Assembly (NCBI GenBank): GCA_030054175.1
Contig: JASGCM010000006.1
Coordinates: forward strand, 1-64,000
Direction of reading: 5' to 3'
Origin: Alphaproteobacteria bacterium
GTDB lineage: Bacteria; Pseudomonadota; Gammaproteobacteria; Burkholderiales; Burkholderiaceae_C
Length of the DNA stretch: 64,000 bases
Shown here: piece by piece, positions 16,469 through 23,806 of the stretch
How positions within the stretch are numbered: position 1 is the first letter of the stretch
How the letters are laid out: every line of letters starts with the position of its first letter
The notes under the pieces: generated by a model
Told to the model about the DNA's origin: nothing
What the model saw: the letters and a program-made list of their open reading frames with translations, nothing else
The model's database searches: none
Program-made: the position numbers and the translations under genes

Positions 16469-17410
16469 TCAACTGCGCTGATGTTGTCGCCAGTCCCGAA
16501 CTTGCCCCGGGATCAGCTCAAGTGAGCCCAGTATTTGCACGCCTGCGATCGGGCGACGGCGCAAGACCGGGTTGCGGCCGCCGGCCCAGATCGCGATGGA
16601 TTCGGGCAGCAGGCGACGCAACTCTTGCAAGCCATCGAACACTTGATTGGGGTTCAGGTTCAGACTGAAACTGAGCGCTACGATGTCCACTTGATGTGCC
16701 TGGGCTGCTTTGGCAATATCAGGCAGAGGGGTTTGTGTGCCCAAGGACAGGCAGCGACAACCCTCCAGGGACAGCAGGCACTCCACCATCAACAAGCCCA
16801 AGCCATGAGACTCTTGGGGAAAGGTGGTCAGCAGCACGCTGGGTCGACTTTGTTGTTGCGCCTGCGGCACGTTGCCGATGGCATGTCGCAGCACCGAGAT
16901 CACGCATTCGGTATAAAGGTGCTCTTCAAAAATCTCCAACTCACCGCGCATCCATGCGTCACCGATCATGCCGTTGAGCGGCGCCACCAAATCAGTGATG
17001 AAGCGGTAATGGCCAAGAGCCACAACGGCTTGATTCAAGCGTCGGCGCAACTGTTCGGCTTCGTGCTGTTGCACGCAATCGAGAAAATCGCGTAAATCGG
17101 TTCCGCCGCCGGGCTCCATGCTCAATTTTTGGGGTGTGCTGGTTTGGCCTTGACTCAAACGCGTCAGCGTCTCCATGGGGAGTGACACGATCCGGCCAGG
17201 CCGATGCCCTTGGTCGAGCAGGCGCTTGATCGCGCGCAGCTTTTCCACCTGCTCCAAAGGGTAGCAGCGCTCTCCAAAAGCATCGCGTCCAGGCGTAGGA
17301 AAGCCGTAACGGCGTTCCCAAATGCGCAGGGTGTCTTTGCCAATTCCAGTGTCCCTCTCCACGGCGGCAATGGATACCGACATGGGCTCGGGAGGTGTTC
17401 GCTGATTCAT
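16469..17410 (-). CDS. MerR family regulator with cobalamin-binding domain (CarH/LitR-like)
   Basis: This 313-residue protein has an N-terminal MerR helix-turn-helix (about 12-75, GIGKDTLRIWERRYGFPTP). A B12-binding region follows from about 110 to the end, with the four-helix part and a Rossmann part. It has the signature of the adenosylcobalamin photoreceptors: Trp153, nine residues, Glu163-His164, and then ExH with His202 in PQESHGLGLL, the position of the lower axial cobalt ligand in Thermus CarH. CarH/LitR proteins repress in the dark and release DNA when light breaks the cobalamin-carbon bond. It is divergent from the lipid-modification operon at 17491-23806, and a 15 bp palindrome lies between them. 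Light control is inferred from motifs and neighbours. Confidence 0.82.
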   Translation of the reverse strand: MNQRTPPEPMSVSIAAVERDTGIGKDTLRIWERRYGFPTPGRDAFGERCYPLEQVEKLRAIKRLLDQGHRPGRIVSLPMETLTRLSQGQTSTPQKLSMEPGGGTDLRDFLDCVQQHEAEQLRRRLNQAVVALGHYRFITDLVAPLNGMIGDAWMRGELEIFEEHLYTECVISVLRHAIGNVPQAQQQSRPSVLLTTFPQESHGLGLLMVECLLSLEGCRCLSLGTQTPLPDIAKAAQAHQVDIVALSFSLNLNPNQVFDGLQELRRLLPESIAIWAGGRNPVLRRRPIAGVQILGSLELIPGQVRDWRQHQRS

Positions 17411-17446
17411 GGGGCTAAAAGGATGATGTCAGGTGGGGCTTTTCAC

Positions 17447-17461
17447 TTTGTCCTAGACAAA
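17447..17461. promoter_or_regulatory. Palindromic operator candidate between regulator and operon
   Basis: TTTGTC and GACAAA form perfect six-base arms around CTA in the 80-base gap between the divergent MerR regulator and gpx genes. This is the natural place for the operator of the regulator. The assignment to the MerR protein is by position only. Confidence 0.5.
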
Positions 17462-17490
17462 TCACCCATATTGCATCATCATGCGTCAAT

Positions 17491-18099
17491 ATGAATGCAA
17501 AATCAATCCATAACCGCTGGAGCCATGGGGTCGTTGCTGCTTGGATTGGGTGGCCAATCGCCATGATCCTGTTTTGCGGTTTGTGGTGGTCTGGCCCTGT
17601 TCAGGCATCAAACTCGGCCTGCCCCACAGTATTGCAGCATGTGTTCCCACGCTTGCAAGACGAAAAACCACAAGACTTGTGTCAGTATGCGGGTCAAGTG
17701 GTGGTGGTGGTGAATACTGCCAGCTATTGCGGGTTTACCCCTCAGTACAAGGGCTTGGAGTCGTTGTATTCCAGATACAAAGCCAAAGGCTTGGTGGTGC
17801 TGGGCTTCCCTTCCAACGATTTCAGCCAAGAGCCCGATAACAATCAAAAAATCGCCGACTTTTGCGAAAACACCTTTGGGGTGAAGTTCCCGATGCTGGC
17901 CAAGACCTCGGTGCGTGGACCACAAGCCGCCCCCATATTTCAGCAACTGGCGCAACGCACAGACACCACCCCCAAGTGGAATTTTTACAAATACGTGATC
18001 TCGCGCGATGGCCGAGAGATCACGGCCTTTGGCAGTATGACCGGACCGACCGACCGGAAATTCATCGCCGAAGTTGAACGGATACTGCAAAAACCATGA
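17491..18099 (+). CDS. Glutathione peroxidase family protein, exported
   Basis: This 202-residue member of the glutathione/thioredoxin peroxidase family reduces lipid or hydrogen peroxides with thiols. An N-terminal hydrophobic segment (IGWPIAMILFCGLWWSG) followed by VQASNSACP suggests export or membrane anchoring. The catalytic set is visible: Cys80 in NTASYCGFTPQY, Gln113 in FPSNDFSQEP, and Trp163-Asn164 in KWNFYKY. Cys rather than selenocysteine is used. It is the first gene of the operon facing the MerR-B12 regulator and overlaps the next gene by ATGA. A periplasmic lipid-peroxide reductase fits the membrane-lipid genes that follow. Confidence 0.87.
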   Translation: MNAKSIHNRWSHGVVAAWIGWPIAMILFCGLWWSGPVQASNSACPTVLQHVFPRLQDEKPQDLCQYAGQVVVVVNTASYCGFTPQYKGLESLYSRYKAKGLVVLGFPSNDFSQEPDNNQKIADFCENTFGVKFPMLAKTSVRGPQAAPIFQQLAQRTDTTPKWNFYKYVISRDGREITAFGSMTGPTDRKFIAEVERILQKP

Positions 18100-19431
18100 A
18101 GACACCTGACATGCATTGGCCCCGCGTGGCGGTGGTGGGTTCCGGCATTTCGGGCTTGGTCACCGCCCATGGACTGAAAGATCATGCGCGGGTGACTCTG
18201 TTTGAAGCTGGCACTTACTTTGGCGGGCATACCCACACTGTCGACGTGACACTGCCCAATGCTGAGGGTCAACAGGTTCGTCATGGCGTCGATACCGGGT
18301 TTCTGGTTTTCAATCAGAAGACTTACCCGGGTTTGATCGCCTTATTCCATGAACTACAAGTCGACATTGCACCCTCCGACATGTCCTTTTCAGTCCAGGT
18401 CCCACGCGCATTTGGTGCTCAAGCGTTGGAATGGAATGGTGCCGATCTCGATGCCGTTTTCGCCCAGCGCTCTAACCTCTGGCGTCCCAAGTTCTGGCGC
18501 ATGCTCTCTGACATCGTGCGCTTCAACCGCCTGGCCACCGAGTTGGCATTGGCTGAAAGAGACGCGCAGTTGCTGATGCCCCTAGAGGATTTCCTTGCCC
18601 ACCATGGTTTTGGTGAGGTGTTTCGGGATTGGTATTTGTTGCCCATGTTGGGTTGCATCTGGAGTTGCCCCACCGATCAAATGTTGCGCTTTCCAGTCGC
18701 GACCATGGTGCGCTTTTGCCACAACCACGGACTGATCCAAGTCAACGACCGACCGCAATGGCTGACAGTGCGCGGCGGCGCGCGACATTATGTCGAGAAA
18801 ATCATCGGTCAACTGAGTGAAGCCCGATTGAACAACCCGGTTTTGCGCATCGAACGAGATGACAACGGGGTTTGGCTGCATACAACTCATGGCAGCGAGC
18901 GATTCGACCAGGTGGTACTGGCTACCCACTCCGACCAATCCTTGGCTCTGTTGGCTCAACCGTCACAGGCCGAGAGCGAGGTCTTGGGCGCCATTGCGTA
19001 CCATCCCAATAAGGCTTTCTTGCACACTGACACGAACGTCATGCCTCGGCGGCCTAAAGCCTGGGCGGGCATGGAACTACGAGCGAGCAGAGCCCACTGA
19101 AGGCGGCGCACGCCCTGTGTGCCTGCACTATTGGTTGAACCGACTGCAACCCTTGCCGTTTCGCGACCCGGTTTTCGTGTCACTCAATCCGGTGCGGGAC
19201 ATTCGGCCAGAGTGCGTGTTGCAGGAATTTGAATACGCCCATCCGGTCTTCGACCTCGCCGCCATCGACGCGCAACGACGTGTGCCTGAATTGCAAGGCC
19301 AACAACGCACCTGGTTCGCTGGTGCCTGGATGGGCTACGGTTTTCATGAAGACGGTTTGCGTGCCGGTCATTCGGTGGTGCGGAGCTGGCTGTCCCGTCA
19401 TGCGCCCAACGCATTGGGGGCCAACGCATGA
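18096..19431 (+). pseudogene. FAD-dependent amine oxidase/desaturase-like protein, frameshifted
   Basis: The first frame (18096-19100) starts with an FAD-binding motif (VAVVGSGISGLVTAHGL) and matches the NAD(P)-binding FAD oxidoreductases found beside DUF1365 and Cfa genes. The family reading continues in another frame with WNYERA, PLPFRDPVFVSLNPV and the C-terminal FAD motif WFAGAWMGYGFHEDGLRAG. The break lies at GGG 19067-19069: removing one G restores a continuous AWAAWNY. The whole would be about 445 residues. The gene overlaps gpx and DUF1365 by ATGA at either end. One extra base in otherwise intact sequence suggests either a recent mutation or a sequencing error. The exact substrate is unknown; a role in fatty-acid desaturation or oxidation is likely. 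Confidence 0.8.
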
Positions 19432-20198
19432 CCGCTTGGTTGGGTTTGGGTGAAGTGCGGCACACCCGCTTGCGTCCGGTGCGGCATGCCTTTGTCCATC
19501 CGACCTGGTTTCTGATGTTGCCCATGCGCAAGCTCAGTTCCCAAGGTGATATGGGCGTCGCGATCAATCGGCGCGCTTGGGTGGCCTTTCACGATGCCGA
19601 TCACGGCGACGGCCGTGGACCCGAGGTCGGTGGCGCCTTGGCTTGGTTGTTCGAGATGCTGGCTGACCAAGGTGTGGATGACGTCGACGGGGAGGTGTGG
19701 TTGCATTGTTACCCCCGTGTATTGGGTTACGCCTTCAAGCCCGTGAGCTTTTGGTACGCCCATCGTGCCGACGGTAGCTTGCGCGCGGTGGTCGCCGAAG
19801 TCAACAACACGTTTGGTGAGCGCCATAGTTACTTGCTCGACCATCCGCGTGAGGGACAAGTCCTGACCGCTCGCAAGGTGTTTCATGTATCGCCCTTTTG
19901 TGAGGTCAAGGGAGAATACCAATTCCGTTTCATGCGCACATGGACCGCCCCAGGGCAGCCCAGTCGCACAGTGGCGCGCATTGATTTACACGACGACGAA
20001 GGTCTTTTGCTTCAAACCAGCATATGCGGACGGCTACAAGCAGCCAATCCCGCTGAGTTGCGGCGCGCGGTTTGGCGCCACCCTTGGCTCACCCTTGGAG
20101 TGATTCTGCGCATTCATTGGCACGCTTTGCAGTTGTGGCGCAAGCGCGTGCGGTTCTTCCACAAGCCGACGCCACCGGCTGATTTCGTGACACGCTGA
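19428..20198 (+). CDS. DUF1365 domain protein
   Basis: This 256-residue protein matches the DUF1365 family throughout: an N-terminal VRHTRLRPVRHAFVHPTWFL, a central YPRVLGYAFKPVSFWYAHR, and VAEVNNTFGERHSYLL. Such proteins are nearly always encoded between an FAD amine oxidase and a Cfa-like methyltransferase, and in alphaproteobacteria they belong to singlet-oxygen-induced regulons. The biochemical role is not established. The ATG overlaps the stop of the preceding gene by four bases, and cfa starts four bases after its stop, which indicates co-translation. No signal peptide is visible. Confidence 0.88.
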   Translation: MTAWLGLGEVRHTRLRPVRHAFVHPTWFLMLPMRKLSSQGDMGVAINRRAWVAFHDADHGDGRGPEVGGALAWLFEMLADQGVDDVDGEVWLHCYPRVLGYAFKPVSFWYAHRADGSLRAVVAEVNNTFGERHSYLLDHPREGQVLTARKVFHVSPFCEVKGEYQFRFMRTWTAPGQPSRTVARIDLHDDEGLLLQTSICGRLQAANPAELRRAVWRHPWLTLGVILRIHWHALQLWRKRVRFFHKPTPPADFVTR

Positions 20199-20202
20199 TG
20201 CC

Positions 20203-21438
20203 ATGAGACCTACCAGTTCATCCGTCTCTGCACGACCCTTGGGAGATGCCCGGGTCGGCAACTCCATGCGCCAGATCATTGCTTTATTGGCTCACGCCCG
20301 CCATGGGACCCTGACCCTTCAAGAGCCCGATGGGCAGACACGCGTCTACGGCGCCGGCCAATCTCCGCATGCCATGATCAACGTGCACGATCCAGCGGTG
20401 TTCGACATGGCTTTGAAATCGGGCGATATCGGCTTTGCCGAGGCCTACATTGAGCGCCATTGGTCCACCCCTGATTTCAGTTTGCTGTTGCAGTGGGCCC
20501 TGGTCAACCGACGCGCGCTGGATGATGTGATCTATGGCCGTTGGTGGGGCCGCCTGTTCTATCGGTTGCGCCATTGGTCACGTCGCAACACACGCACCAA
20601 CAGCGCCAAAAACATCCACGCGCACTATGATTTAGGCAACGATTTTTACCGCCTGTGGCTCGACTCGACCATGAATTATTCGTCGGCCTGGTTCCAGGGC
20701 GATGCCAGCCTGCCATTGCCGCAGGCCCAATTGGCCAAGATGACACGTGCGTTGAACCAAGTGGGTTTGAGTGCAGTCGCCGACCAAAGGGTTTTGGAGA
20801 TAGGTTGCGGCTGGGGGGCAATTGCCGAGATGGGCGCACGCGACCATGGTGCGCGCATGACTGGAGTGACTCTCAGTCAGGAGCAGCTGGCTTGGGCCCG
20901 GCGCCGACTGGATGACGCAGGCTTGAGCGCCGACTTGCGCTTGCAAGACTACCGCGATATCGCCGATGAGCCTTTTGATGCCATTGTGTCCATCGAGATG
21001 CTCGAGGCGGTTGGGCAAGCTTACTGGCCCACTTACTTCCAATCGGTGCGTCGCCTCTTGAAGCCCGGAGCCAAGGCCTGCATACAAACCATCGTCATTG
21101 ACGACGCCTTGTTTGATCGCTACATCAGAGGCACTGACTTCATCCAGCAATACATTTTCCCCGGGGGCTGCTTGCCCAGTCCATCCCGCTTTTGCCAGGC
21201 TGCTGAACGCGCCGGTTTAGTGGTTGAAGACAGTTTCAATTTTGGCCGTGATTACGCCCAAACTTTGCGGGTCTGGCGCCACGACTTTTTGGCTCGTCGC
21301 GAGGAGGTGTTGGCTCAGGGCTTTGACGACCGCTTCATCCGGACCTGGGAGTTTTACTTGGCTTATTGCGAAGCGGCCTTTGAGCAAGGCAGTACCGACG
21401 TGGTGCAGTACACCCTGAGCCACCCCGCCCAATCATGA
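20203..21438 (+). CDS. cfa: Cyclopropane-fatty-acyl-phospholipid synthase family methyltransferase
   Basis: This 411-residue S-adenosylmethionine-dependent enzyme acts on unsaturated acyl chains of membrane phospholipids, adding a methylene (cyclopropane) or methyl group. Family landmarks are IHAHYDLGNDFYRLWLDSTM, a SAM motif near 198-206 (VLEIGCGWG), VSIEMLEAVG, and the IFPGG segment. The length agrees with family members. In clusters with DUF1365 and amine oxidases, paralogs of Cfa can instead methylate unsaturated chains on the way to furan fatty acids, so cyclopropanation is not certain. It sits mid-operon, with the next gene overlapping by ATGA. Confidence 0.9.
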   Translation: MRPTSSSVSARPLGDARVGNSMRQIIALLAHARHGTLTLQEPDGQTRVYGAGQSPHAMINVHDPAVFDMALKSGDIGFAEAYIERHWSTPDFSLLLQWALVNRRALDDVIYGRWWGRLFYRLRHWSRRNTRTNSAKNIHAHYDLGNDFYRLWLDSTMNYSSAWFQGDASLPLPQAQLAKMTRALNQVGLSAVADQRVLEIGCGWGAIAEMGARDHGARMTGVTLSQEQLAWARRRLDDAGLSADLRLQDYRDIADEPFDAIVSIEMLEAVGQAYWPTYFQSVRRLLKPGAKACIQTIVIDDALFDRYIRGTDFIQQYIFPGGCLPSPSRFCQAAERAGLVVEDSFNFGRDYAQTLRVWRHDFLARREEVLAQGFDDRFIRTWEFYLAYCEAAFEQGSTDVVQYTLSHPAQS

Positions 21439-21986
21439 CCGCCTTCACCCGTCGCCATGGCTTGCTGTTGCTGGCTCTGGCGGCCTTGTCCGTTGCCGCC
21501 CAATGGCCGTCTGGCGCTGAGTGGTTGGTGACCATGGATCGAGAGCAAGGTCGCCATCGTTTTCGCTTTTGGGGCTTGGATGTCTATGAGGCGGTGTTGC
21601 GCGTCGCTCCAGGATTTGAGCCTTCACAGTGGGAGCGCCACCCCTTGGCCTTGTCACTGACCTACGCCAGAACCTTCAAAGGGACGGACATTGCCAGACG
21701 CTCTCTGGACGAGATCGAGCGACAAACGCCTTTGGATCCCGTTTTGCGCCAGCGCTGGCAGAGTCAGTTGACGGCGATTTTCCCGGATGTTGTTGCCGGT
21801 GATACCCTGTTGGGGGCGTACCGTCCCGATCTGGGCGTGGTGTTTTGGCGGCGCAGTGGCGGTTGGCAAGCAGTGGGTCAGGTGCCCGATGTCGAGTTGG
21901 CTCGGCGCTTCATGGGCATCTGGTTATCGCCCCAAACCAGTCAAACCGGCATGCGATCGGCTTTATTGGGTTGGGGGCCCGGTTGA
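21435..21986 (+). CDS. Chalcone-isomerase-like periplasmic protein
   Basis: This 183-residue protein has an N-terminal signal-like segment (HGLLLLALAALSVAAQWPSG) and the layout of the chalcone isomerase-like domain: FRFWGLDVYEAVL, LALSLTYARTFKG, and the GDTLLGAYRPDLGVVFWRR region. Bacterial members of this fold are probably fatty-acid-binding proteins rather than flavonoid enzymes. The ATG overlaps the cfa stop by four bases. In this setting it may carry or bind modified acyl chains in the periplasm; this is an inference from fold and neighbours. Confidence 0.75.
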   Translation: MTAFTRRHGLLLLALAALSVAAQWPSGAEWLVTMDREQGRHRFRFWGLDVYEAVLRVAPGFEPSQWERHPLALSLTYARTFKGTDIARRSLDEIERQTPLDPVLRQRWQSQLTAIFPDVVAGDTLLGAYRPDLGVVFWRRSGGWQAVGQVPDVELARRFMGIWLSPQTSQTGMRSALLGWGPG

Positions 21987-22012
21987 GGTTGACCTGATTT
22001 GGAGAAACAAAG

Positions 22013-22558
22013 ATGAACCGTAGATCCTGGCTGTTGGCAACCACCTCCTCGGTGGCCTGGGTGGGTCTGAGTGGCTGCGCCAGCCCGAAAGTGTCCGACT
22101 ATGCCACCGAACAACCCAGCTTGGACTTGCGCCAGTATTTCCAGGGCAAGATCGACGCATGGGGCGTATTCACTGACCGCTCGGGGCGTGTGGTCAAGCG
22201 TTTCGCGGTCGAGATGGATTGTCAGTGGAGCGGTGACGAAGGCGTGCTCGACGAACATTTCACCTATTCAGATGGCACCATCCAACGTCGCGTCTGGCGC
22301 TTGCGCCATGAAGGCGGCGGCCGCTACAGCGGGCGTGCCGATGACGTGGTCGGTATCGCCAGCGGCCAAACCAGCGGCAACGCCTTTCGCTGGGGTTATA
22401 CCTTGTCCTTGCCGGTCGATGGCCGGGTCTGGGAGGTTCAATTTGACGATTGGATGTTTCTCATGAACGATCGCGTTATGTTGAACAAAGCGCGCATGAG
22501 CAAGTGGGGCATTGATTTGGGCGAGGTGACTTTGTCCTTCATCCGGCGGGGGCACTGA
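22013..22558 (+). CDS. DUF3833 lipoprotein
   Basis: This 181-residue protein has a lipoprotein signal (SSVAWVGLSGC at about residues 11-21). The mature part matches DUF3833: LRQYFQGKIDAWGVFTDRSG near the start and WMFLMNDRVMLNKARMSKWG near the end. DUF3833 proteins recur in clusters with Cfa, DUF1365 and SDR genes, but their function is unknown. It begins 26 bases after the preceding stop and is followed by the SDR gene one base after its own stop. The mature protein should sit in the outer or inner membrane facing the periplasm. Confidence 0.82.
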   Translation: MNRRSWLLATTSSVAWVGLSGCASPKVSDYATEQPSLDLRQYFQGKIDAWGVFTDRSGRVVKRFAVEMDCQWSGDEGVLDEHFTYSDGTIQRRVWRLRHEGGGRYSGRADDVVGIASGQTSGNAFRWGYTLSLPVDGRVWEVQFDDWMFLMNDRVMLNKARMSKWGIDLGEVTLSFIRRGH

Positions 22559-22559
22559 C

Positions 22560-23354
22560 ATGAGGGTCGCCGGATTAAACCCTGCCGTGGCTGATTGGCG
22601 AGGCCGCAGTATCTGGTTGGTGGGTGCCTCCAGCGGCATCGGGCAGGCTTGTGCCCAAGCCTTGATGGCGGCCGGTGCACGGGTGGCCGTATCGGCCCGC
22701 CAAGCCACCTTGCTCGAACAACTGTGCGCCGGTCACGACGCCCTGCCTGTGCCCTGCGATGTGACCGATTTGGAATCGGTGCGCGAGGCGGCCGAACGGG
22801 TGCGAGCCCATCAGGGCTTGGACTGGGTGGTTTATTGTGCGGGTCATTACAAGCCCATCCGGCCTTTGGAAAATCTGAATTTACCCGAATTGCTGCGCCA
22901 TCAGGCCGTCAACTACAACGGCGTACTTCACGTGCTCGACGCCGTGTTGCCCGCCCTCGTTGAACAGGGCCGAGGACACATCAGCATGGTGGGCAGTGTG
23001 GCGGGTTATCGGGGATTGCCCATGAGCATGGCGTACGGGCCAACCAAGGCGGCCATGCATCACTTGGCCGAAATCTTGTACATGGAACTCAAGCCTGCGG
23101 GCATAGGCGTGAGCGTGGTCAACCCGGGTTTTGTGGCCACACCGCTGACGGCTCAAAATCAATTTCACATGCCGGCTCTGCTCCAGCCTGATGAGGCCGC
23201 GCGTGCCATGCTGCATGGCTGGGAGCGTGGCGAGTTTGAAATCCATTTCCCTAAACGCTTCAGCCGATTTCTGAAATGTTTGCGCTGGCTGCCCGACCGC
23301 TGGTATTTTCCTTTGGTTTGGCGCGCCACTCAAGGCAGTCTGAAAAAACCATGA
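22560..23354 (+). CDS. Short-chain dehydrogenase/reductase
   Basis: This 264-residue classical SDR has the cofactor motif GASSGIG at 22-28, CDV after strand 3, the NYNG region, the catalytic serine in SMVGSVAGYRG, and Tyr159-x3-Lys163 (YGPTK). The C-terminal HFPKRFSRFLKCLRWLPDRW resembles SDRs acting near membranes on acyl substrates. It is fused translationally to its neighbours (one base after DUF3833, ATGA overlap with the next gene). An NAD(P)-dependent reduction or oxidation of a lipid intermediate fits the operon, but the substrate cannot be told from sequence. Confidence 0.87.
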   Translation: MRVAGLNPAVADWRGRSIWLVGASSGIGQACAQALMAAGARVAVSARQATLLEQLCAGHDALPVPCDVTDLESVREAAERVRAHQGLDWVVYCAGHYKPIRPLENLNLPELLRHQAVNYNGVLHVLDAVLPALVEQGRGHISMVGSVAGYRGLPMSMAYGPTKAAMHHLAEILYMELKPAGIGVSVVNPGFVATPLTAQNQFHMPALLQPDEAARAMLHGWERGEFEIHFPKRFSRFLKCLRWLPDRWYFPLVWRATQGSLKKP

Positions 23355-23806
23355 ATACCACCCATGATCGTGCGAGCCTGGACGCTGCTTTGACAGAATT
23401 GGTGAGATTTTTTGAGCAACTCAGTTCCGAGAGCGTGAGCCAGCTACCACTTCATTACGCTGCCGATGTGCGATTCAAGGACCCGTTCAATGAAGTACAG
23501 GGCTTGGCCGGAGTTGAGCACATTTTTCGGCACATGTTCGTCCAACTCGAACAGCCGCGCTTTATCGTGAGGGCGCACCTGCTTCAGGGCCGACAGGCTT
23601 TCTTGACTTGGGATTTTTGCTTTCGTTTTCGCCGTTTTGACACAGTCAGCCTGCAAACCGTGCGCGGGGCCACGCACCTGATATTCAACGACCACGGCCT
23701 GGTCGTTGAACACCGTGACTATTGGGATGCCGCCGAAGAGTTGTATGAAAAACTGCCCATGGTGGGTGGGCTGATGCGTTGGCTCAAAGCCCGCGCCCGG
23801 TCATGA
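23351..23806 (+). CDS. NTF2-like (SnoaL-type) protein
   Basis: The 151-residue protein has the cone-shaped NTF2-like pattern: a helical start (LTELVRFFEQLS), YAADVRFKDPFNEVQGLAGVEHIF, and strands ending HRDYWDAAEELYEKLPMVGG. Similar proteins close the Cfa/DUF1365/SDR clusters of many proteobacteria. Its ATG at 23351 overlaps the SDR stop, which chooses this start over the longer frame from 23276. It may be an isomerase, cyclase or binding protein for the product of the pathway. Its last six bases overlap the convergent GST gene. Confidence 0.78.
   Translation: MNTTHDRASLDAALTELVRFFEQLSSESVSQLPLHYAADVRFKDPFNEVQGLAGVEHIFRHMFVQLEQPRFIVRAHLLQGRQAFLTWDFCFRFRRFDTVSLQTVRGATHLIFNDHGLVVEHRDYWDAAEELYEKLPMVGGLMRWLKARARS

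Follow-up and report, generated by a model that had tools for sequence, protein, structure and literature searches.

Background

Light or singlet oxygen is known to control genes for membrane lipid modification in several bacteria. In Pseudomonas, a polycistron with genes for a short-chain dehydrogenase (SDR), an FAD oxidoreductase and the methylase UfaM is induced by light (ufaM 25-33 fold) via class II LitR, which is described as lacking a B12-binding domain and answering to a LOV protein, and in Burkholderia the C-terminus of the class III LitR does not resemble the B12 domains (PMC9758184). In CarH and class I LitR (Thermus, Bacillus, Myxococcus) a Wx9EH motif contacts the adenosyl group, and an intact Wx9EH motif separates B12-dependent CarH from B12-independent CarA (PMC9304148). 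Here we compare with these systems a locus in a 64,000-nucleotide stretch of Burkholderiales DNA (family Burkholderiaceae_C; assembly GCA_030054175.1, contig JASGCM010000006.1, positions 1 to 64,000), referred to as the window, in which the gene of a CarH-like MerR regulator is divergent from an eight-gene operon that includes genes resembling the furan fatty acid genes ufaD, ufaO and ufaM.

In the furan fatty acid pathway of Rhodobacter and Rhodopseudomonas, UfaM methylates cis-vaccenoyl chains, UfaD desaturates and UfaO, a DUF1365 protein, makes the furan; in Rhodopseudomonas palustris UfaD, UfaO and UfaM are RPA2571, RPA2570 and RPA2569 (PMC7380195). The pathway matches our locus in combining an amine-oxidase-type desaturase, a DUF1365 oxygenase and an S-adenosylmethionine (SAM) methylase in the same order, and differs in that in Rhodobacter it is raised upon loss of ChrR, in the singlet-oxygen response. 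In Shewanella, a periplasmic glutathione peroxidase is driven by RpoE2-ChrR, for which control of a cfa/phrB operon is predicted as well (PMC4336711), while the blue-light response of Vibrio cholerae requires the MerR protein VCA0056 and ChrR (PMC5241685). The Shewanella system resembles our locus in bringing an operon with cfa and photolyase genes and a separate periplasmic glutathione peroxidase into one oxidative response, whereas both it and the Vibrio system are under sigma/anti-sigma control. No ChrR-type cupin was found over the PF12973 cut-off in the window's own genome (two sub-cut-off matches, at C12:150208 and C17:100546; extracytoplasmic function (ECF) sigma factors were not searched).

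An earlier note on this window, made from the sequence alone, had proposed light control of the operon genes. The B12-type sensor motifs and the linkage described below speak for that proposal, but light control as such had already been published for Pseudomonas with class II LitR and a LOV protein (PMC9758184). Light or singlet-oxygen control of such genes is already known, and the B12-type sensor, the operator and the link to iscR are the apparent new part: among the open-access literature matches listed, none deals with a B12-type LitR or CarH combined with Burkholderiales ufa genes, nor with one linked to iscR, subscription papers not being covered.

Conservation of the regulator-operon pairing

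The locus is a real, conserved regulatory unit. Its eight genes run on the + strand from 17491 to 23806, opposite to the regulator gene on the − strand (Table 1), and the earlier note's observation that most junctions are four-base overlaps agrees with our count of four out of seven, the remaining gaps being 4, 26 and 1 bases. In a search of 120 genomes of the family, 56 matched the regulator at E <= 1e-10 and 50, the window's own included, at E <= 1e-46, the remaining matches being weaker, partial or restricted to the helix-turn-helix. We compared 47 family stretches, which come from 46 of those 50 genomes plus one weak match (L108); the own genome and three matches on short contigs were left out. 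The amine oxidase, DUF1365 and cfa genes (the core genes) occur together in 38 of these stretches; the amine oxidase gene is present in 39, and there the regulator was scored as divergent in 38 and is divergent by its coordinates in the 39th (L106). A second sample consisted of the best 80 of 574 loci from named relatives and partly overlaps the first; here the core was divergent from the regulator in 63 of the 64 loci with at least 4 kb of upstream sequence, and the nearest named relative of the regulator among these best 80 was that of a Limnohabitans metagenome-assembled genome, with 71% identity over residues 1-313. The window thus probably derives from a freshwater member of the Comamonadaceae resembling Limnohabitans. 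The earlier note had set a lack of conserved linkage between regulator and genes beforehand as one of its refutation tests, and in both samples the linkage was found. The conservation of the pairing is far above chance.

An order-wide search with DUF3833 gave a match in 110 of 300 genomes, from which 53 further stretches, mostly the best-scoring ones, were examined. The core genes are present in 49 of these, and the regulator in 30 (22 divergent, seven on the operon strand, one without an amine oxidase gene in view), leaving 23 stretches with none. A TetR gene was seen near the operon in 14 of the 23 regulator-less stretches (L109, L118, L125-L129, L132, L144, L146, L148, L152, L153 and L158) and in not one of the 78 loci that carry the regulator, the window's among them; two of the 14 TetR genes were scanned with Pfam. 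The regulator is rarer outside the order than within it: in the class sample of 369 genomes, 17 have a match at 1e-40, and two of these belong to the family. The 16 outside-order stretches examined (15 genomes) divide into five with the core (L418, L420, L423, L424 and L426), two in which the regulator faces carotenoid genes and nine with neither.

A palindrome shared by the regulator-bearing loci

The regions upstream of the regulator genes share the palindrome TTTGTC-N3-GACAAA. They contain 57 exact TGTC-N3-GACA cores, compared with 0, 1 and 0 instances of the same core with a spacer of 1, 2 and 4. A site within three mismatches of the consensus TTTGTCCWRGACAAA was found in 54 of the 62 divergent loci (window included) and one within a single mismatch in 37, while random 300-mers of the same loci gave 42 and 16 out of 1240, respectively. 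Since the consensus was read from the same loci the figure of 54/62 is descriptive, and better controls are provided by the regulator-less operons with a visible start, none of which carries the operator within three mismatches (0/20), by the named sample, where it was found in 70 of 78 loci (partly the same genomes), and by the iscR comparison described below. Occurrence of the operator tracks presence of the regulator. In the seven same-strand loci there is no site upstream of the regulator itself, and in five of them a site precedes the amine oxidase gene; of the nine regulators without an amine oxidase gene in view, six have the operator.

Two or more sites are present in 34 of the 62 divergent loci, with 63 bp as the commonest spacing. 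Among the 27 loci with a pair of sites 60-66 bp apart, 14 have a promoter matching in at least 9 of 12 positions between the sites, against 24 of 540 shuffles. Paired operators about 63 bp apart suggest a DNA loop, which would be held by a tetramer that light dissolves. The window has a single, exact operator that overlaps the −35 hexamer of a promoter-like site, and nowhere else in the 3.10 Mb assembly does a sequence come within one mismatch of the consensus; the promoter-like site (one found, versus a mean of 0.2 in shuffles) is by itself no evidence of function. Single relatives also carry exact copies of the palindrome close to genes for a chemoreceptor, a lipocalin and TerC (L304, L287, L434 and L436), and these sites, in one or two genomes each, may be due to chance.

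The regulator and its B12 motifs

The regulator is probably an AdoCbl (adenosylcobalamin)-dependent repressor that is relieved by light, as predicted from its domains and motifs. Its MerR domain (PF13411) is over the Pfam cut-off and has a recognition helix, RIWERRY, that fits RxWERRY, both B12 domains are over theirs (PF02607, 35.5 bits for a cut-off of 23; PF02310, 35.4 bits for a cut-off of 32.1), and the best PDB sequence matches are 3whp ("probable transcriptional regulator") and Thermus CarH 5c8d, both with E ~1e-25. The Wx9EH motif (W153, E163 and H164 in the window) is kept in 76 of the 78 regulators, that is the window's and those of the regulator-bearing stretches, ExHxxG in 77 and GxxxP in 76; the named regulators have GxxW...EH in 80/80 and ExHxxG with GxxxP in 79/80. 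The AdoCbl motifs of the CarH/LitR type are intact. The published cobalt-ligand pattern D/ExHx2G-x41-SxT/V-x22-27-GG is found with ESHGLG at 200, SFS after exactly 41 residues and GG after 27, with a single deviation (S in place of T/V), and the own genome encodes a corrinoid adenosyltransferase (PF02572). The MerR domain with RxWERRY, the two B12 domains, Wx9EH and ExHxxG are features shared with CarH and class I LitR, as is the occurrence of close relatives facing carotenoid genes, the classic CarH target, which is described below.

The Pseudomonas regulators of class II (PplR/PmlR, with short LOV proteins) are alike in controlling a polycistron with SDR, FAD oxidoreductase and UfaM genes, but have only the four-helix B12-binding_2 domain and an operator of the form TGTACA-N12-TGTACA (PMC9758184), unlike the additional B12-binding domain and the palindrome found here. 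Class II was rejected as the class of our regulator on account of its B12-binding domain being over the Pfam cut-off. The Pseudomonas example does raise the alternative that the regulator takes its signal from another photoreceptor, LOV or similar, and that its own B12 domain is vestigial, as class II LitR does act in this manner on homologous genes (PMC9758184). We consider this scarcely probable, with both B12 domains over their cut-offs, unlike class II, and a cobalt-ligand motif kept in 77 of 78 regulators, which would not be expected of a vestigial site.

Furan or cyclopropane as the product

The amine oxidase, DUF1365 and Cfa-family genes stand in the ufaD-ufaO-ufaM order of Rhodopseudomonas palustris (PMC7380195), and the same paper supports the link which the earlier note had made between the amine oxidase and DUF1365 genes and the furan fatty acid pathway induced by singlet oxygen. 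The methyltransferase is the only full-length match of its family in the genome, the other match being partial. In the Escherichia coli cyclopropane synthase the bicarbonate ligands are Glu239, His266 and Tyr317 (PMC11387697); Glu239 and Tyr317 are kept in all of the 151 aligned methyltransferase rows, and His266 is replaced by Gln in every one. Because of this loss and of the gene order, the product is most likely a furan and not a cyclopropane fatty acid. The assignment to the Ufa enzymes is likewise a probable one, made on gene order, domains and the lost His266.

The earlier note had left the choice at cyclopropane or furan fatty acids, and the furan half of this is what the evidence favours. 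That the operon makes cyclopropane fatty acids after all, with the DUF1365 protein and amine oxidase doing something else, would fit the placing of the methyltransferase in the CMAS family and its best PDB matches, which are cyclopropane synthases. The substitution at His266 beside conserved Glu239 and Tyr317, the gene order and the naming of a Pseudomonas homologue in a like cluster as UfaM (PMC9758184) make this distinctly improbable, and cyclopropane was rejected as the likely product on the loss of the His266 ligand in all rows. We hypothesise from the alignment that Gln at this position would mark furan-type methylases.

Two further operon products may act on lipids. The AlphaFold2 model of the chalcone-isomerase-like (CHI-like) protein (mean pLDDT 89.4) has as its Foldseek matches chalcone isomerases and the CHI-like proteins of plants that bind fatty acids (best E 9.9e-7, TM ~0.5-0.6), and that of the DUF3833 protein (pLDDT 89.5) is an all-beta barrel which weakly matches BFA1, CpeS, a FABP-like protein and lipocalins (best E 7.8e-5). 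These models suggest that both proteins bind acyl chains or lipids in the envelope, the CHI-like protein probably being acyl-binding. The CHI-like protein and the glutathione peroxidase each have an N-terminal hydrophobic stretch, read by eye. The one paper naming DUF3833 among the literature matches listed describes an Erwinia amplicon in which CFAS adjoins DUF3833.

Organisation of the locus and the broken amine oxidase frame

The features of the locus are given in Table 1. The flanks are housekeeping genes, with glnE and a cytidylyltransferase-like gene on one side and a convergent glutathione S-transferase gene and adenylosuccinate lyase on the other.

Table 1. Positions of the regulator gene, the predicted control sites and the operon genes in the window.
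Feature	Position	Strand	Evidence
MerR/B12 regulator, CarH-like, 313 aa	16469-17410	-	Pfam MerR_1, B12-binding_2 and B12-binding over cut-offs
Palindromic operator (predicted) TTTGTCCTAGACAAA	17447-17461	strandless	Divergent intergenic region; exact consensus match
Promoter-like site TAGACA-N17-CATCAT	17454-17482	+	Consensus scan; -35 hexamer inside operator
Glutathione peroxidase, exported, Cys type	17491-18099	+	GSHPx E 5.6e-30; PDB matches are of the GPx family
ufaD-like FAD amine oxidase, frame broken	18096-19431	+	N-terminal piece 18096-19100; C-terminal piece in a different, overlapping frame ending 19431
ufaO-like DUF1365 protein	19428-20198	+	PF07103 E 5.3e-76; sole DUF1365 match of the genome
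ufaM-like SAM methyltransferase, CMAS/CFA-synthase family	20203-21438	+	PF02353 E 6.7e-78
Exported chalcone-isomerase-fold (CHI-like) protein	21435-21986	+	Chalcone_3 26.8 bits, just under the Pfam cut-off of 27; AlphaFold2 and Foldseek
DUF3833 lipoprotein, calycin-like beta barrel (modelled)	22013-22558	+	PF12915 E 6.7e-70; model and Foldseek
Short-chain dehydrogenase (SDR)	22560-23354	+	adh_short E 6.4e-40
SnoaL/NTF2-like protein, last gene of the operon	23351-23806	+	SnoaL_2 E 4e-11

The description of a regulator divergent from eight coupled genes in the earlier note holds for the anatomy and the domains, with the qualification that the amine oxidase frame is broken in the assembly. The word "complete" used of the operon also overlooks an extra gene which most relatives hold between the CHI-like and DUF3833 genes and which is absent here. 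When the two pieces of the amine oxidase are searched separately, one finds all 67 long homologues from named relatives and the other finds 66 of them. Among 161 homologues, with the window's counted in and with overlap between the named and unnamed samples, 156 extend over 390 codons or more, counted from where the match begins; the five shorter ones are the window's and four truncated by the end of their stretch. The break is either a strain lesion or an assembly error and is not a conserved feature, and a programmed frameshift was rejected because the break is not conserved in relatives. Unless it is an assembly error, the UfaD-like step may be lost in this strain.

The broken frame, together with a single operator where 34 of the 62 divergent loci have more and with the missing gene between the CHI-like and DUF3833 genes, could also mean that the operon is decaying in the window's strain and that its product is no longer made. 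We regard such decay as unlikely. All seven of the other genes have open frames and the operator matches exactly, the break itself may be an assembly error, and the same-genus relative L066, in which the extra gene is absent and the operator weaker still, has a long amine oxidase frame. The single operator and the missing gene thus look like traits of the lineage.

In 67 of 73 stretches, and in 42 of 43 named loci, the CHI-like and DUF3833 genes stand at least 1000 bases apart, and in the one representative scanned this gap holds an MFS_2 transporter gene (L115:8437-9738). A ferritin/desaturase-like gene recurs in 44 of 101 stretches (e.g. L121:15232-16086 and L123:7904-8860), with an FA_desaturase_2 match in two representatives, and in L121 a photolyase-related DPRP gene lies beside it.

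Sites before iscR and carotenoid genes

The consensus was found within one mismatch in 24 of 30 regulator-bearing genomes, with some of the sites beside iscR. An iscR match was obtained in 113 of the 120 family genomes. The regions upstream of iscR were then compared in these, two ambiguous genomes being set aside, one of which (G045) has a three-mismatch site. Within two mismatches the palindrome precedes iscR in 12 of 47 regulator-bearing genomes and in none of the 64 others (Fisher p 1.3e-5), and within three mismatches in 15 of 47 and again 0 of 64; when the four genomes that had prompted the test are removed, 8 of 43 versus 0 of 64 remain within two mismatches (p 4.4e-4). Related genomes are not independent, and these p-values are guides only. 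There is no iscR site within two mismatches in 35 of the 47 regulator-bearing genomes.

The window's own genome is among the 12: its site TTTGTCTTGTGCAAA, with two mismatches, lies outside the window on contig C39 (7832-7846), 219 bases before iscR, which is followed by genes for an iscS-type aminotransferase and Hsp70. A regulator with one target only was therefore not upheld, the window operator being the one place within one mismatch but the iscR site being present at two. Taken with the family-wide comparison, this suggests that in some of the genomes with the regulator, the own genome included, the same response extends to iron-sulfur cluster assembly.

Two genomes of one genus outside the order (L421 and L422) have regulators with E ~1e-97 against that of the window, which face a carotenoid operon with genes for a lycopene cyclase, a polyprenyl synthase and an amine-oxidase-type enzyme (as scanned for one of these genomes), and each has two palindromes with one mismatch apiece. 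In the tree these regulators fall just outside the operon-linked rows, without starred support; they are close, but not the nearest outside the order.

The proposed switch

With moderate confidence we explain the locus as a local switch for photo-oxidative membrane protection, building on its observed gene content, conservation, motifs and co-occurrence of operator and regulator. In the dark, the AdoCbl-loaded CarH-like regulator would sit on the TTTGTC-N3-GACAAA palindrome between the divergent genes, covering the −35 region, and keep the operon, and probably its own gene, at a low level. Light, or loss of AdoCbl, would break the cobalt-carbon bond, and the regulator would let go and the operon be transcribed. 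The UfaM-, UfaD- and UfaO-like enzymes would then convert unsaturated acyl chains of phospholipids stepwise into methylated furan fatty acids that scavenge singlet oxygen, while the exported glutathione peroxidase would reduce lipid peroxides and the CHI-fold and DUF3833 barrel proteins may bind or move acyl chains in the envelope. Through the palindrome before iscR, light would also open iron-sulfur cluster assembly in the subset of regulator-bearing genomes noted above.

A number of observations weigh against this explanation. Nine of the 47 family stretches lack the three core genes; two of them are cut by contig ends (L067 and L070), but in seven the sequence is present (L084, L088, L092, L097, L099, L105 and L108). 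Outside the order only 5 of 16 regulator stretches carry the core, and the regulators of L426, L430 and L431 show neither B12 motif by pattern. Three of the five genes of the R. sphaeroides operon are described as dispensable for furan synthesis, single deletions of RSP1087, RSP1088 and RSP1089 having left the fatty acids unchanged (PMC7380195), and in the window the amine oxidase frame is broken. The operator of the same-genus relative L066 is degenerate, with four mismatches, and the own iscR site has little weight alone because two-mismatch matches are common genome-wide (43 strand matches of the palindrome, versus 17 for a reversed-pattern control). The regulator appears to differ from CarH and class I LitR in having a lipid operon as its main target and a palindrome in place of the 11-bp direct repeats nAnnTnnACAn of CarH operators (PMC8156234), and with 125.3 bits it is well below the NCBIfam CarH equivalog cut-off of 400 bits, for which reason we name it CarH-like rather than CarH. 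The light signature GxxW, EH, GxxH and GxxxP (PMC11796333) is found for three of its four elements in the window, where Q replaces the G before ExH; all four elements are strictly present in 38 of the 78 regulators, and GExH in 24 of the 80 named ones. The position of His132 of Thermus CarH (TtCarH) is Met in the window and is His in none of the motif-bearing regulators (0/76 and 0/80), while His does occur at this position in three relatives outside the order that are more distant (L425, L427 and L432); in one study the tetramer of the TtCarH variant H132A largely persists after light, the same paper noting that disassembly had been reported earlier (PMC10442372).

A further alternative is that the regulator reports AdoCbl supply or the redox or anaerobic state rather than light, repressing when B12-loaded and not when B12-poor or oxidised. 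The same motifs would serve such a sensor, the proteins examined lack the His132 switch through which light leads to break-up of the TtCarH tetramer, and CarA, a relative of the family, binds B12 without needing it (PMC8156234). However, the targets resemble photo-oxidative defence genes, two close relatives face carotenoid genes, and CtMerR, which has Arg at the His132 position, is still light-responsive (PMC11796333), so that we judge a sensor of AdoCbl or redox state unlikely. His132 is variable among light-responsive proteins (PMC11796333) and present in "many" CarH (PMC9304148), and because the reports on H132A differ and CtMerR responds to light, this position does not settle the question of light.

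Conclusions

Our preferred reading is a light-relieved, B12-type repressor of a furan-lipid operon. A wider proposition, which we put forward tentatively and consider less likely than not, is that a widespread Burkholderiales lineage of His132-less B12-type regulators, with a palindromic and often paired operator bracketing the promoter at about 63 bp, acts as a direct switch for furan-lipid synthesis and, in some genomes including the window's, for iscR, and would in this way join light sensing to the protection of both membranes and clusters.

Light is a main stress for freshwater surface bacteria, yet most of what is known of B12 photoreceptors concerns the switching of carotenoid genes. 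A sensor of this kind is linked here, in many genera, to furan-lipid genes and, by the operator evidence, to iron-sulfur assembly, and the locus yields an operator sequence that can be tested. The regulators form a natural set of His132-less sensors in which to ask how a B12 light switch could operate when bis-His ligation is absent, and in annotation the change of His266 to Gln may help to tell furan-type methylases and cyclopropane synthases apart.

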